From positions 1-33,218 of the forward strand of contig JAPOJV010000021.1 in the NCBI GenBank assembly GCA_029978085.1: 33,218 bases of DNA, given 5' to 3'. The notes beneath the pieces were generated by a model. That model was not told the DNA's origin. It worked only from the letters and a program-made list of their open reading frames with translations, and did no database searches. Below are positions 13,648 through 23,482 of this stretch, piece by piece. Each line of letters starts with the position of its first letter. Positions within the stretch are counted from its first letter, which is position 1. Source of the DNA: a bacterium. Lineage in GTDB: Bacteria > Planctomycetota > Planctomycetia > Pirellulales > UBA1268. The position numbers were made by a program, and so were the translations under genes.

Positions 13648-13670
13648 GCGAGCGGGTGCGGCGGACGGCA

Positions 13671-13949
13671 TTACAGCCGGCGGAGCCGCGTGAACTCGTC
13701 GATCGTCACCGTGGTGAGCTCGCCGTCGTCGCGGGCGAGGATCAGCACGTCGCTGTAGACCTTGTCGTCGGCGTTGCGGCGGAAGTGGAGGCCATGCCGC
13801 CGCCGCTCCGTCCGCAGCACCTTGCCTACGGTCGTGGTGCTCCACTTCGCGCTGGAGCCCACGGTCACTCCGTGCGCCACCTCCACCCGGTCGCCCGGCT
13901 GGAGCTGCTCGTAAAGACTGCGGGCCTGGTATTCCTCGGGCGTCATCAC
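13671..13949 (-). CDS. Small conserved-looking hypothetical protein (92 aa)
   Basis: Complete ORF MMTPEEYQARSLYEQLQPGDRVEV... directly downstream of ilvC, same strand. Confidence 0.65.
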   Translation of the reverse strand: MMTPEEYQARSLYEQLQPGDRVEVAHGVTVGSSAKWSTTTVGKVLRTERRRHGLHFRRNADDKVYSDVLILARDDGELTTVTIDEFTRLRRL

Positions 13950-13973
13950 ACTCCCTCGCTCAGGCTCTTCGGA

Positions 13974-14978
13974 TCAGACTTCCTTGCTCTCGATCCACTT
14001 CATCATCTTGCGGAGCTGGCGGCCGGTGCGGGTGAGCTGGTGCTCCCGCTCGCGGCGGCGGGTGCTCTTGAACATCGCGGCGCCGGCCCGGTTCTCGAGG
14101 ATCCAGTCGCGGGCGAACTCGCCCGAGCGGATCTCCTCGAGGATCTTCTTCATCTCCGCGCGGGTCTCGTCGGTGATGATCCGCTTGCCGCGGGTGTAGT
14201 CGCCATACTCGGCGGTGTTCGACACGCTGTATCGCATGTACTCCAGGCCGCCCTGGTAGAGCAGGTCGACGATCAGCTTCATCTCGTGGAGGCACTCGAA
14301 GTAGGCCATCTCGGGCTGGTAGCCGGCCTCGACGAGCGTGTCGAAGCCCGCCTTGATCAGCTCCGACACACCGCCGCAGAGCACTGCCTGCTCGCCGAAC
14401 AGGTCGGTCTCGGTCTCCTCGGCGATCGTCGTCTCGATCACGCCGCCGCGGGTGCCGCCGATGCCCTTGGCATAGGCCAGGCCGATCTTCTTGGTCTCGG
14501 CCGAGGCGTTCGGGCCGAGGGCGATCAGGCAGGGCACGCCGCCCCCCTTCACGTATTCGCTGCGGACGAGGTGGCCGGGGCCCTTCGGGGCGACGAGCAG
14601 GATGTCGTGACCGGCCGGCGGCTCGATCTGGCCGAAGTGGAAGTTGAAGCCGTGGCTGGCCATCAGCACGGCACCCTTCTTCAGGTTGGGCTTGATCGCC
14701 GCGCGGTAAACGTCGGCAGCCAGTTCGTCCGGCAGCAGGATGTTGATCACGTCGGCCTGCTTCACGGCGTCTTCGACGCTCATCGGCGAGAAGCCGTGGC
14801 TCTTGGCGAGTTCATAGTTGGGGCCGCCCGGACGCTGGGCCACGACGACATTGAGCCCGCTGTCGCGGAGGTTCTGGGCCTGGGCATGGCCCTGCGAGCC
14901 GTAGCCGATGATGGCGATGGTCTTGCCCTTGAGGGCGGCGAGGTCGGCGTCGGCGTCGTAATAAATCGTCGCGGGCAC
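13974..14978 (-). CDS. ilvC: Ketol-acid reductoisomerase
   Basis: [40 protein letters not shown] start at 14976-14978 (the longer ORF to 15710 is over-extended). Confidence 0.95.
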
Positions 14979-15013
14979 GGGATGCTCCTGGCGTGGTGGT
15001 GGGAGGGTGTGTG

Positions 15014-15571
15014 TCAGGCGAGTGAGTCGGTGGCGTCGGCGGCGTCGGCGGGGCGGCCGCCGTCGGCCGCCTCGGTGAGCTCGCGGGTGGGCAGGCTGCC
15101 CCGCACCATCGCGATTCGGCCGGTGCGGACGAGTTCGAGGATGCCGCGGGGCCGCATCAGTTCGATGAAGCCCTCGAGCTTCTTCTCCGTGCCCGAGATC
15201 TCCACGATCACGCTGTCGCCGGCTACGTCGACGATCCGGCCGCGGAAGATCTCCGCAAGCTCCTTCACCTCCGTGCGGGCGGGGCCGGCCGGAGCCGCCA
15301 CCTTGAGGAGCATCAGATCGCGCTCCACATAGTTGCGGGAGCTGATGTCGTCGACGCGGACGACCGTGACGATCTTTTCGAGCTGGCGGCGAACCTGGTC
15401 GAGCACCCGGTCGTCGCCGCGGAGCACGAATGTCATCCGGGAAAACCGTGGGTCTTCGGTCTCGCCGACGGCGAGGCTGTCGATGTTGTAGCCGCGGGAG
15501 GCGAGCATGCCCGAGACGTGGGCGAGCACGCCGGGGACGTTCTGGACCGTGGCCGAGAGGACGTGGCGCAT
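15014..15571 (-). CDS. ilvN: Acetolactate synthase small (regulatory) subunit
   Basis: [54 protein letters not shown] (ACT domain). Confidence 0.92.
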
Positions 15572-19094: not shown

Positions 19095-19856
19095 GTGATC
19101 GAAGTCGTCGACCTCGTAAAGCACTACCGGGCGAGTGACGGCGGCATCGTGAAGGCGGTCGATGGCGTGTCGTTCGCCGTGGCTGCCGGTGAGATGGTGG
19201 GCCTGCTCGGCGCGAATGGTGCCGGCAAGACCACCACGCTGCGGGTGCTCGCGACGCTGCTCAAGCCGACGTCGGGCACCGCGTTCGTGGGTGGCCGGGA
19301 CGTGCGCGAGGATCCCGTCGGCGTGCGACGGCGGCTGGGCTACGTGTCGGCGACCACGGGCGTACCGGATCGGCTCACGCCGCGTGAGGTGTTCGACTCC
19401 TTCGGCCGGCTGCACGGCCTCGACCCGGCGGCCCGCGCAGCTCGGGTCGAGCGACTGCTCGACGTGCTCGGCCTACGGTCGTGCGCGGACCGGCCCGCGG
19501 GCCGGCTGTCGTCCGGGCAGCGGCAGCGGGTGTCGGTGGGGCGGGCGCTCGTGCACGATCCGCCGGCGCTCGTGCTCGATGAGCCGACCAGTGCGCTCGA
19601 CGTGGTCGGCTCCCGCGACCTGCTCACGCTGCTCATCGACCTGCGGGCGGAAGGGCATGCGATCCTGCTTTCCACCCACCGGCTCCACGAGATCGAGCAC
19701 CGCTGTGACCGATTCGTCGTGATCCACGGTGGTCGCGTGGTGACCACGGGCACCCGCGCCGACCTCGTCGCGGCGGCGCCGAGCGACGGCCCCGCGACGC
19801 TGGAGGCGGCCTTCTTTGCCGCGATCGACGCGACTGCCGCGGGGGCGCCGCCATGA
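19095..19856 (+). CDS. ABC transporter ATP-binding protein (NatA-like)
   Basis: Walker A LGANGAGKTTT, signature LSSGQRQRVSVGRAL, Walker B ALVLDEPTS; GTG start. Confidence 0.93.
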   Translation: MIEVVDLVKHYRASDGGIVKAVDGVSFAVAAGEMVGLLGANGAGKTTTLRVLATLLKPTSGTAFVGGRDVREDPVGVRRRLGYVSATTGVPDRLTPREVFDSFGRLHGLDPAARAARVERLLDVLGLRSCADRPAGRLSSGQRQRVSVGRALVHDPPALVLDEPTSALDVVGSRDLLTLLIDLRAEGHAILLSTHRLHEIEHRCDRFVVIHGGRVVTTGTRADLVAAAPSDGPATLEAAFFAAIDATAAGAPP

Positions 19857-22069
19857 ATGCTGCACGCAGCGGATGGCGGGGCGGCCTGCGAGCGGCGGTC
19901 GCGATCGCCCGCCGTGATCTCGTGGAGTTCGTCCGCGACCGCCGCACGCTCTTTATCACTCTGCTCCTGCCGGTGGCCACCTATCCGATCCTGGCGCTCT
20001 CCACGGCGCTCGGCGTGCGGACGGCGGCGGTCGAGATCGAGGCCGAGCGGGCGCCCGTGCCGATCGTCGTGGTCGCGTCGGGCCGCGATGCCGCGGCCTT
20101 CGCGGCCCGCGTGGCCGCCGTCGATGCGAGCGTGACCGGCGCCGCCCGGCAGGAGTGGCCGGCATCACTGCGACTGGACGTGGTGCTGCCGGAGGAGGCG
20201 CGGCGGCGGGTGGATGCGGGCGAGGCCGATCTGTGGATCGAGACGCGGCCCCGAATCATCACCGACCTCGACAGTCGCGGCACGGTCGCGATCCCGGTGC
20301 GCTGGTCCGACAGACGGCCGTTGCCGCAGCAGGTGCGGAGTCAATTCGAGGTCGTGATGAAGGCGGTGGCGGCGGATGCACGCACGCGGCGGCTCGCAGC
20401 GGCCGGGCTCCCGGCCGACCTTCTCGAGCCACTGACACTGAGCTATGCCGCTACGAAACCCGGCGAGGCACCCGCGGCCCCGAAGCCGATCGCGCCGGTG
20501 GTGGCCGGCGGTGTGCTCGTGCTCCTGGCGGTGCTGACGCTCACCGGCGCCTTTTACCCCGCCATCGATGCGATCGCCGGCGAGAAGGAGCGGGGAACGA
20601 TCGAGACGCTATTGATCGCCCCGTGCGCCCCCCGCGACATCGTGTTCGGCAAATTTCTCGCGGTGTTCGCCGTCACGGTGGCCACGCTGGTGGTGAACGT
20701 GCTTTCCATCTGCGCGACCGGCGCCGTGGCGGGCCGGTTCCTCCCGCAGGGGCTGAGCCTGGGCCTCCCGGCCGGCGGCCTGCCGATCGTCGTAAGCGTG
20801 CTCGCGTTCGTGGGCCTGGCGGCGCTCTCGGCCGCGACGTGCCTCGCCGTCACCACCGCGGCCAAGAGCGGCAAGGAGGCGCAGAACACGCTCACGCCGG
20901 TGATCCTGCTGGTGAGTGCCTTGGCCGGCACGGCGCTGCTGCCCGGCATGCAGGCCGCGAGTCCGATCGCCGCGGTGCCGTTCGCCGGGCAGGTGCTCGT
21001 CGGCCGTGCCGCCTTCGATCTCGCCGACGGGGCCGCAGGTTCGTCGCTCGCGGTGCTGGCGGGCCTCGCGGTCACGCTGGTGTCGTCATGCCTGCTCACC
21101 GGCCTGCTGCTCGCGCTCACGTCGCTGATGCTCACCGACGAAGACATCCTCTTTCGCGGCCCCGACGTGGCCGCGTCGGGGCTGGCCCGACCCGGCCGCC
21201 GAGACCGACCCACGGTGGTCGAAGGGATCGTGCCGCTCGTCGGCGGCCTGGCCGCGCTCTGGTATGCCCAGGGCCTCACGCCCGACGACCTCGCCCTGGC
21301 GATCCCGCTGCAGCAGGTGCTCACGGTACTGGGGCCGCTCATGCTGGCCGTGTGGTGGCAGCGGGTGAACCTCGTGCGGACGTTCTCGCTCCGCTGGCCG
21401 TGGGGGCTGCCGCTCGGCGCGGGCACGCCCGTCGGCCGCGTCGTCGCGTCGGTGGGAGGCGCGGCGCTCGTGGGGGCCGGCATGTTCGGCCTCGGCGCCG
21501 CAGCCCTCCTGGCCGTGAAGGGCACGAGCCTGTCGGTCGAGGCCGAGGACCTCAACCGCCGACTGCTCGACCTCATGCTGCAGCGGCCGACCTGGCTGGC
21601 ATGGTGCCTCATGGCCCTCGTGCCCGCGGTGTGCGAGGAGTTCTTGTTTCGCGGCTGGGTGCTGGCCGCGTTCACGGGCGGAGGTCGTTCGCTGCGGCGA
21701 GTGACTGCCGCGGTCGTAGCGCAGGCGGCCTGCTTCGCCGTGTTTCATCTGCTGCCCGAGCGGATGCCGCAGACGTTCGCCCTCGGTCTCGCGCTCGGCG
21801 CGATGACGGTGGCCACGCACAGCATCCTGCCGGCGATCGTCTGCCATCTGGTGCACAATAGCCTGCCGCTCGTGCTCGTCATGCTCGCCGGCGGCCGCAC
21901 GGCCCTGGCGCGGGCGGTCGAGTCGGCAGGCGCGAGCGATGGCGTGACGACCATTCCGCCCTGGGCGGTGGTGGCCGCGGTGATCAGCACGGCCTGCGGC
22001 ATCGCCCTGCTCGCCGCGGGCACACGGGCCGCACGCGATGCAGGGCAGTCACGGAGCGACGAACGATGA
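19853..22069 (+). CDS. ABC-2 permease (NatB-like) fused to C-terminal CPBP intramembrane protease
   Basis: AGEKERGTIETLLIAPCAPRDIVFGKFLA permease motif and VPAVCEEFLFRGWVLAAF CPBP motif in one ORF; ATGA overlap with the ATPase gene. Confidence 0.88.
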   Translation: MNAARSGWRGGLRAAVAIARRDLVEFVRDRRTLFITLLLPVATYPILALSTALGVRTAAVEIEAERAPVPIVVVASGRDAAAFAARVAAVDASVTGAARQEWPASLRLDVVLPEEARRRVDAGEADLWIETRPRIITDLDSRGTVAIPVRWSDRRPLPQQVRSQFEVVMKAVAADARTRRLAAAGLPADLLEPLTLSYAATKPGEAPAAPKPIAPVVAGGVLVLLAVLTLTGAFYPAIDAIAGEKERGTIETLLIAPCAPRDIVFGKFLAVFAVTVATLVVNVLSICATGAVAGRFLPQGLSLGLPAGGLPIVVSVLAFVGLAALSAATCLAVTTAAKSGKEAQNTLTPVILLVSALAGTALLPGMQAASPIAAVPFAGQVLVGRAAFDLADGAAGSSLAVLAGLAVTLVSSCLLTGLLLALTSLMLTDEDILFRGPDVAASGLARPGRRDRPTVVEGIVPLVGGLAALWYAQGLTPDDLALAIPLQQVLTVLGPLMLAVWWQRVNLVRTFSLRWPWGLPLGAGTPVGRVVASVGGAALVGAGMFGLGAAALLAVKGTSLSVEAEDLNRRLLDLMLQRPTWLAWCLMALVPAVCEEFLFRGWVLAAFTGGGRSLRRVTAAVVAQAACFAVFHLLPERMPQTFALGLALGAMTVATHSILPAIVCHLVHNSLPLVLVMLAGGRTALARAVESAGASDGVTTIPPWAVVAAVISTACGIALLAAGTRAARDAGQSRSDER

Positions 22070-23193
22070 TGCAGCGACAGGGATCGAGAGCGGCCTGGAC
22101 CGTGGGACTCCTCGTGGCTGCCACCGCCGCGTGGGCTGACGAGCCGGCACCGGTCGCCCCGGAGCCGGCCGCCGCCGCGGGCCCAGCGGAGGTGCAGCGG
22201 CTGCGGGTGGGCGTGATGCCGATCGCCTCCGCGGTGGACTGGACCGGCGATCAACCCGTCGGCGTGATGATCGACATCTGGGAAAACCTGGCGGGCCGGC
22301 TGGGCGTGGAGACCGAATTCGTTCGCGTGGATGCGTTCCCTGCGCTGATCGAGCTGGCAACCTCCGGCACGGCCGACGTGGCGCTCGGGCCGATCGCGAT
22401 CACCGAGGACCGGGAGCGGGTGCTCGATCTCACCCACTCGATCTTCCACTCCGGATTGCGGGTCGCCGTCCGCCAGCGGAACGAGACGGGCTTCCTGGCC
22501 GCGGTGCGGTCGATGCTCTCATGGCAGCTCCTGGAACTCGTCGGCATCGTGGTTGCCCTCGCCCTGATCTCGGGCCACCTCCTGTGGTGGTTCGAACGCG
22601 GCCGCAACGACCATTCGTTTCCGACGGCCTATCCACGGGGCGTCGGAGAGGCGCTCTGGTGGATCATGTCCACGATCATGACCGGCGGCTGCGACGACAA
22701 GCACGTCGACAGCCTGCTCGGCCGGGGCATCGCCTTTGCCTGGATGGTCGGTGGCATCAGCCTTATCGCCGCCTTCACGAGCGTGCTCACCGCGACGATG
22801 ACGGCCGACCGCGTGACGGGCACGATTCACGGCCCGCGGGATCTCGCCGGCCGGGTCGTCGGCGTGCAGGCCGCGGCCGTGACCGGGCCGGTCGTGCGGC
22901 AGCGCGGAGCCATCCCCCAAGAGTTTCCCTCGATCAATGCCGCACTCGATGCGCTCGCGCTCGGCATGGTCGAGGCCGTCGTCTCGGAGAACCAGCAGCT
23001 GATGTTCCTCGTGTCGCAGGCGAGCCGGAATTCGCTCCGCCTCGTGGGGCCGGTCTTCGAGTCGTTCGACTATGGCCTCGGCCTCCCCCCGGGCAGCCCG
23101 CTCCGCGAGCCGCTCAACACGGCGATCCTGCGGATGCGGGAAGACGGCAGCCTCGGGCGATTCATCGAAGAGTGGTTCGGCAAGCACGAATGA
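22066..23193 (+). CDS. Prokaryotic ionotropic-glutamate-receptor-like channel (periplasmic-binding S1/S2 domains split by M1-P-M3 pore)
   Basis: Signal peptide; LRVGVMPIAS..ALGPIAITEDRERVLDLTHSIFHSGLRVAV (S1), TM WQLLELVGIVVALALISGHLLWWFERG, pore GEALWWIMSTIMTGGCDD, TM GRGIAFAWMVGGISLIAAFTSVLTATM, then S2 to the end; ATGA overlap with the upstream gene. Confidence 0.85.
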   Translation: MMQRQGSRAAWTVGLLVAATAAWADEPAPVAPEPAAAAGPAEVQRLRVGVMPIASAVDWTGDQPVGVMIDIWENLAGRLGVETEFVRVDAFPALIELATSGTADVALGPIAITEDRERVLDLTHSIFHSGLRVAVRQRNETGFLAAVRSMLSWQLLELVGIVVALALISGHLLWWFERGRNDHSFPTAYPRGVGEALWWIMSTIMTGGCDDKHVDSLLGRGIAFAWMVGGISLIAAFTSVLTATMTADRVTGTIHGPRDLAGRVVGVQAAAVTGPVVRQRGAIPQEFPSINAALDALALGMVEAVVSENQQLMFLVSQASRNSLRLVGPVFESFDYGLGLPPGSPLREPLNTAILRMREDGSLGRFIEEWFGKHE

Positions 23194-23220
23194 CGGGTCG
23201 ACCTCCTGTGGTGAGAGCTC

Positions 23221-23354
23221 GGGGCTGCCCATGCCCCGAGAGCCGGACGCTCGCTTCGGACATCCTGTCCTTCGCTCGCTCGGATGCCGCCTTCGCTTCG
23301 GCATCCTGCCTGCGCTCGGCGGCATACGCCGGCTCTCGGGGCATGGGCAGCCCC
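23221..23354. repeat. 134-bp element with 26-bp perfect terminal inverted repeats and nested internal hairpins
   Basis: ggggctgcccatgccccgagagccgg (23221-23246) is the exact reverse complement of ccggctctcggggcatgggcagcccc (23329-23354); inner ggatgccg/cggcatcc. Confidence 0.9.
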
Positions 23355-23375
23355 TCACGGGCGTATTTGAGAGCT

Positions 23376-23457
23376 GTAGGCCCGTTGCTCCGCAACGGGC
23401 TGCAAGTAGCCCGGTCACGCCGTGACCGGTGAAGCAGCCTGTCACGGCGTGACAGGC
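23376..23457. repeat. GTAG-REP locus C: three hairpins (GCCCGTTGC-TCC-GCAACGGGC; CCGGTCAC-GCC-GTGACCGG; GCCTGTCAC-GGC-GTGACAGGC)
   Basis: Hairpins at 23380-23400, 23411-23429 and 23437-23457; GTAG at 23376 and 23406. Confidence 0.85.
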
Positions 23458-23482
23458 CCACGGGAAGGCATCGCGATCCGCG

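Follow-up and report, generated by a model that had tools for sequence, protein, structure and literature searches.

A planctomycete GluR0-type receptor with TGGCDD in place of the K+ filter, encoded beside an ABC-2 exporter and protease and fused to them in relatives

The receptor gene and its operon

The window, the whole 33,218-nucleotide stretch of planctomycete DNA analysed here, contains a forward-strand operon in the order ABC ATPase, ABC-2 permease/CPBP protease and, last, a homologue of ionotropic glutamate receptors (iGluRs), with 4-nucleotide overlaps between successive genes (Table 1). The ATPase, in whose sequence Walker A (GANGAGKT), an LSSGQ-type signature and Walker B can all be read, is the first gene of the exporter/receptor group, and its orthologue lies upstream of the permease in relatives. 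The permease/protease gene begins inside the ATPase stop, and its own stop is shared with the receptor start, an arrangement from which we infer translational coupling of the last two genes. The permease/protease matches the NatB-like family NF041647 (NCBIfam ABC_perm_CPBP) over almost its full length (1.8e-114) and keeps the protease motifs; unlike members of that family, it scores below the curated cut-off (383.8 bits against 435) and is joined to a receptor channel. Family likeness allows the guess that the exporter performs NatB-like Na+ export. Further upstream, the window encodes ribosomal protein S2, elongation factor Ts, a member of the amino-acid-kinase family (UMP kinase, judging by position) and ribosome recycling factor, and a 558-codon ORF at 13656-15332, flanked by the genes for a methyltransferase and ribosomal protein S2, has no Pfam match. 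Just downstream of the receptor is a palindrome-rich 276-base element (23205-23480) with 26-base inverted arms at 23221-23246 and 23329-23354. About 40 dispersed near-copies (82-96% identical) were scored in the genome from 444 first-look candidates, and the sequence resembles a miniature mobile or REP-type element.

Table 1. Features of the exporter and receptor genes in the window
Feature	Position	Strand	Basis
ABC transporter ATPase (NatA-like), GTG start	19095..19856	+	Pfam ABC_tran 1.8e-30
ABC-2 permease fused to CPBP (Rce1-like) intramembrane protease, 738 aa	19853..22069	+	Pfam ABC2_membrane_2, Rce1-like
ATGA overlap: permease/protease stop and receptor start	22066..22069	+	sequence
GluR0-type iGluR homologue, 375 aa	22066..23193	+	ORF, Pfam, AlphaFold2, Foldseek
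Signal peptide, residues 1-24 (...ATAAWA/DE)	22066..22137	+	by inspection
S1 half of ligand-binding domain, residues 44-140	22195..22485	+	Pfam, PDB matches, model
M1 helix, residues 153-177	22522..22596	+	AlphaFold2 model
Re-entrant pore helix, residues 189-206	22630..22683	+	AlphaFold2 model
Filter TGGCDDK, residues 206-212	22681..22701	+	alignments
M3 (inner) helix, residues 217-250	22714..22815	+	AlphaFold2 model, HMMER alignment
S2 half of ligand-binding domain, residues 252-373	22819..23184	+	PDB matches, model, family alignment

Translation of the receptor gene gives an uninterrupted ORF of 375 codons that matches all three of the Pfam families expected from the original prediction, SBP_bac_3 (1.5e-20), Lig_chan (7.1e-11) and Ion_trans_2 (2.4e-6). 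Among PDB sequences it comes closest to 2PYY, the binding domain of a bacterial receptor (9e-26), to glutamine-binding proteins and to GluA1. A monomeric AlphaFold2 model built with 43 sequences (pLDDT 80.9) has a two-lobed binding domain into which M1, a short pore helix that leads into the filter, and M3 are inserted; the predicted signal peptide is unstructured and of low confidence, and neither M4 nor any other membrane-crossing helix follows S2. In this monomer the pore loop is re-entrant between M1 and M3, the pore helix being followed by the filter loop. AMPA receptors are the top structures in a Foldseek search of the PDB (E 1.9e-23), and both HMMER and Foldseek align the pore-loop region with them. 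The topology that had been predicted, with signal peptide, S1, M1, a re-entrant loop between the two transmembrane helices, M3, S2 and no M4, is thus borne out by the model, and the interruption of its SBP_bac_3 binding domain by a pore module of two helices makes the protein a GluR0-type member of the iGluR family. Like Synechocystis GluR0 and the Group 1 receptors (PMC2950845), it combines a signal peptide and S1-M1-P-M3-S2 order with the ligand Arg and has neither N-terminal domain nor M4; unlike them, it has TGGC[DE][DN] for TVGYGD and Glu for Asp in S2, and its gene is coupled or fused to an ABC-2/CPBP exporter.

The filter, its relatives and the ligand site

The receptor carries TGGCDD where Group 1 receptors have TVGYGD. 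The motif is encoded precisely at 22681-22698, where the original prediction had placed it, and the loss of the K+ filter claimed there is confirmed by K+-type receptors of planctomycetes and Verrucomicrobiota, whose TVGYGDK aligns column by column with TGGC[DE][DN]K. No segment of the family is better conserved than this filter (mean consensus fraction 0.88, versus 0.59-0.77 for the remaining segments of the mature protein), and the pore helix and M3 are likewise strongly conserved. C209, the sole cysteine of the protein, and K212 are invariant in 35 of 35 GGC-type sequences of a reduced set. Among 32 representatives of the window's clade, position 210 is Asp in 27 and Glu in 5, and position 211 is Asp in 22 and Asn in 10; the '+4' acidic position (D210 here) is Asp or Glu in all members. 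Because the filter is the most conserved segment, with C209 and K212 invariant, the aligned sequences indicate that TGGC[DE][DN]K is a conserved trait of the clade and not a chance match. An ordinary GluR0-like K+ channel, with a filter that tolerates these changes and still selects K+, would agree with derivation from K+-type receptors and with the frequent retention of three residues, the Thr preceding the filter, its first Gly and the Lys after it. The signature Tyr and second Gly are replaced in every member, however, and, on what is established for the K+ signature, such changes are incompatible with K+ selectivity, which leaves this explanation highly improbable.

Lig_chan matches occur in 33 of 395 Planctomycetota genomes in a phylum-wide sample, and the readable pores there are TVGYGD except for an LGHKG variant and the present TGGC clade. 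Two Chthoniobacterales receptors have the filter TGGCENK, and other Verrucomicrobiota in a sample of that phylum have VGGADNK (L206 and L208), intermediate between TVGYGDK and TGGCENK. The filters of relatives form a gradient from TVGYGDK through VGGADNK and TGGCENK to TGGCDDK, and the present filter probably descended from that of a K+-type receptor.

Two further sets of receptors with other pores were observed. In several planctomycetes of the same class, the gene for a second non-K+ type, with the pore LGHKG, adjoins a TVGYGD receptor gene (L030, with two receptor ORFs, and L053, L057, L140 and L145), as if two subunits could form a heteromer. Plasmid records from Alphaproteobacteria, Vibrionaceae and one cyanobacterium (L122-L130) encode GluR0-like receptors with the degenerate filters SGKSP.RK, SGKI, ITKGPF, LIGQD and AST-GHRG, annotated, where annotation is given, only as 'transporter substrate-binding domain-containing protein'.

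The original prediction also likened the pore to that of AMPA receptors. HMMER pairs the receptor pore ...LWWIMSTIMTGGCDDKHVDSLLGR... with the GluA2 pore, setting MTGGCDD opposite MRQGCDI, with Thr206 in the Q/R position and Asp210 in that of the '+4' acid, so that the predicted register of Gly-Cys-Asp is real. The '+4' acid after the Q/R/N site is critical for polyamine block in GluA2 and in a placozoan receptor (PMC12226733). The receptor shares with GluA1-4 the in-register Gly-Cys-Asp, this acid, a Glu at the E705 position and a Pro at the P478 position; unlike them, it has Thr at the Q/R site, lacks equivalents of T480 and S654/T655 and, at 375 residues, has no AMPA-type N-terminal domain and no M4. 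Outside the filter, the clade shows no greater likeness to GluA2 than K+-type receptors do: with the filter masked, similarity to the GluA2 pore segment has a median of 17.1 bits in the clade versus 26.9 in K+-type receptors. We therefore do not prefer shared ancestry with AMPA receptors as the source of Gly-Cys-Asp. The match looks best read as convergence, because the filter-masked clade is less GluA2-like than K+-type receptors and because it was within the clade that the Asp usual in bacteria gave way to Glu308.

In a receptor tree made by a quick method with the filter columns excluded, without animal sequences and with some long branches, the window's receptor nests among bacterial receptors, and the 34 GGC receptors of its family form one branch (SH-aLRT 98) with the Chthoniobacterales row apart. 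The deepest family members (L031 and L037, with named copies L111 and L112) retain Asp in S2; L112 has no permease upstream, and L111 lies too close to a contig end to judge. Receptors of the E308 form make up a later-branching, mostly exporter-linked clade. Viral contigs yielded no close relatives of the receptor.

For the ligand site, GluA2 residue numbers and motifs in general use were transferred through the 2PYY alignment. R116 (22411-22413) in S1 aligns with the ligand-carboxylate Arg and is Arg in 31 of 32 members, E308 (22987-22989) in S2 aligns with the amino-group acid, GluA2 E705 (Glu in 30 of 32, Asp in 1 of 32), and P109 aligns with P478. The predicted ligand site stands at the conserved R116 and E308 and fails at T480, S654 and T655, whose places are taken by A111, A271 and V272. 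This loss is largely family-wide, whereas K+-type relatives mostly retain Thr and Ser/Thr-Thr at these positions. The Ser/Thr pair of S2 and the Thr of S1 bear on ligand specificity and do not define the superfamily; with their equivalents lost, the ligand may be something other than an alpha-amino acid. The description 'amino-acid-gated' is accordingly weaker than first stated, several amino-acid-binding positions having changed.

Fusion to the exporter and protease in relatives

A scan of a genome collection gave 60 receptor loci, 51 of them informative for upstream context. Nearly all lie in planctomycete metagenome-assembled genomes, several named Pirellulales and many from lakes, and the carriers are mainly freshwater planctomycetes. 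Permease, protease and receptor occupy a single reading frame of about 1,100 codons at 24 of the 51 informative loci, the permease/protease and receptor genes are adjacent and unfused at 20, and the permease is missing upstream at 7. The same 4-nucleotide overlap (ATGA or GTGA) recurs in 16 of 20 intact adjacent pairs, a count from which L101 and L120 were excluded, as their frames appear disrupted or shifted. The receptor genes of L016/L073 and L120 contain an in-frame stop or have a broken frame and are pseudogenes or sequencing errors.

All 19 of 19 fused homologues retain the protease motifs EE(L)xFRG, H-LPER and HxxxN. At the fused junction every frame is open and divergence is highest at third codon positions, as it is in the flanking domains, in 4 of 4 groups tested; the junction itself is less constrained than those domains. 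The carriers listed by name are all metagenome-assembled genomes, as might be expected if fusion and adjacency were artefacts of assembly or annotation. We reject that explanation and give it almost no credence, since one fused frame recurs at 24 loci in many separate assemblies and the codon-position bias runs across the junction. The fused and adjacent states are separated by three changes on the receptor tree, and fused lineages branch first; fusion may therefore be ancestral, with a later split into separate genes. The two parts also occur singly: there are family members with exporter genes and no receptor, and others in which the receptor is present and that permease is not. A permease/protease gene was sought and not found in the two Chthoniobacterales genomes whose receptor has the filter TGGCENK, so the filter change and the exporter link are separable. 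One genome, G022 (loci L018 and L031, contigs C17 and C8), holds both a TGGCENK receptor with the S2 Asp and an E308-type receptor; no relative of the permease/protease gene was detected in it at E 1e-30.

The fused junction contains an internal hydrophobic, signal-peptide-like segment, followed in most members by an Ala-x-Ala-like site, so the fused parts may be cut apart after synthesis. The fusion would then act as a polyprotein, with signal peptidase cutting at the internal Ala-x-Ala and releasing the channel in a one-to-one ratio with the exporter. We rate this at even chances: an Arg-rich n-region, a hydrophobic stretch and Ala-x-Ala precede S1 in most fused sequences, and unfused genes have this element as their N-terminal signal peptide, but an uncleaved signal anchor would look the same. 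A model of the fused protein is of low confidence (pLDDT 68.9, pTM 0.42) and its domain arrangement is left uninterpreted; every Foldseek match listed for this model is an AMPA-type receptor.

Prokaryotic iGluRs that lack a K+ filter have been on record since 2010 as Group 2 (Ger et al., PMC2950845), and the broad category of non-K+ bacterial iGluRs is therefore not new. The receptor, with GluR0 topology and no recognised K+ filter, agrees with Group 2 as judged against the group's description, which names ten sequences; readable non-K+ relatives from cyanobacteria and proteobacteria differ in motif (SGKSP.RK, LIGQD and ITKGPF). In the full-text literature, subscription papers excepted, we found no report of such receptors in planctomycetes and none of an iGluR fused to an ABC permease. 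As far as we found, fusion to an ABC exporter and protease is an unreported receptor architecture, and the operon and fusion, of which the original prediction made no mention, are a more surprising feature than the Gly-Cys-Asp pore.

Proposed working of the receptor

The iGluR fold together with the loss of the K+ filter supports the original claim of a probable ligand-gated, non-K+ channel. We favour, with reasonable though not strong confidence, a minimal iGluR that works as a ligand-gated, weakly selective cation channel in one unit with an ABC-2 exporter and protease; we infer from sequence and family the tetrameric state, conduction, gating, selectivity and ligand, and any physical or functional coupling to the exporter. 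The receptor would span the inner membrane and expose its binding clamshell to the periplasm. Replacement of TVGYGDK by TGGC[DE][DN]K would remove the K+-coordinating Tyr-Gly frame and encircle the mouth of the pore with acidic side chains, and given this substitution the channel should pass Na+, perhaps Ca2+, instead of selecting K+. A periplasmic ligand would shut the clamshell and pull M3 open, letting cations other than K+ flow in down their gradient, and the co-made ABC-2 exporter would act in the same response. The 4-nucleotide overlaps here and the covalent fusion in relatives suggest that the cell makes the channel along with the exporter and that both probably act on one signal or ion flux.

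The same gene overlap and fusion with a transporter, together with the altered ligand-site and filter residues, would also suit a non-conducting periplasmic sensor whose clamshell detects a solute, whose transmembrane helices relay this to the ABC-2 permease/protease, and which keeps the pore fold only as a scaffold. We consider such a sensor unlikely: the filter, pore helix and M3 are strongly conserved, which is not expected of a non-conducting relic, the acidic/Cys/Lys pattern is invariant across distant members, and receptors of the same clade occur without the permease. The ligand-gated cation channel thus remains our preferred reading. Release of the channel by signal peptidase fits within it, and competes only with the idea that channel and ABC exporter form one covalent machine, in which ligand binding would open the AMPA-like cation pore and the resulting flux or change of shape would directly control the ATP-driven exporter or be reset by it, with the CPBP protease as a built-in regulator; we regard that idea as doubtful.

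These receptors bear on the open question of how a K+-selective bacterial ancestor gave rise to the non-selective channel of synapses. The clade, which apparently reached the Gly-Cys-Asp solution independently, forms with its TVGYGD, VGGADN and TGGCEN relatives a natural series through the filter change, in proteins small enough for biochemistry, and the fusion to an exporter and protease gives a bacterial iGluR a concrete cellular partner.
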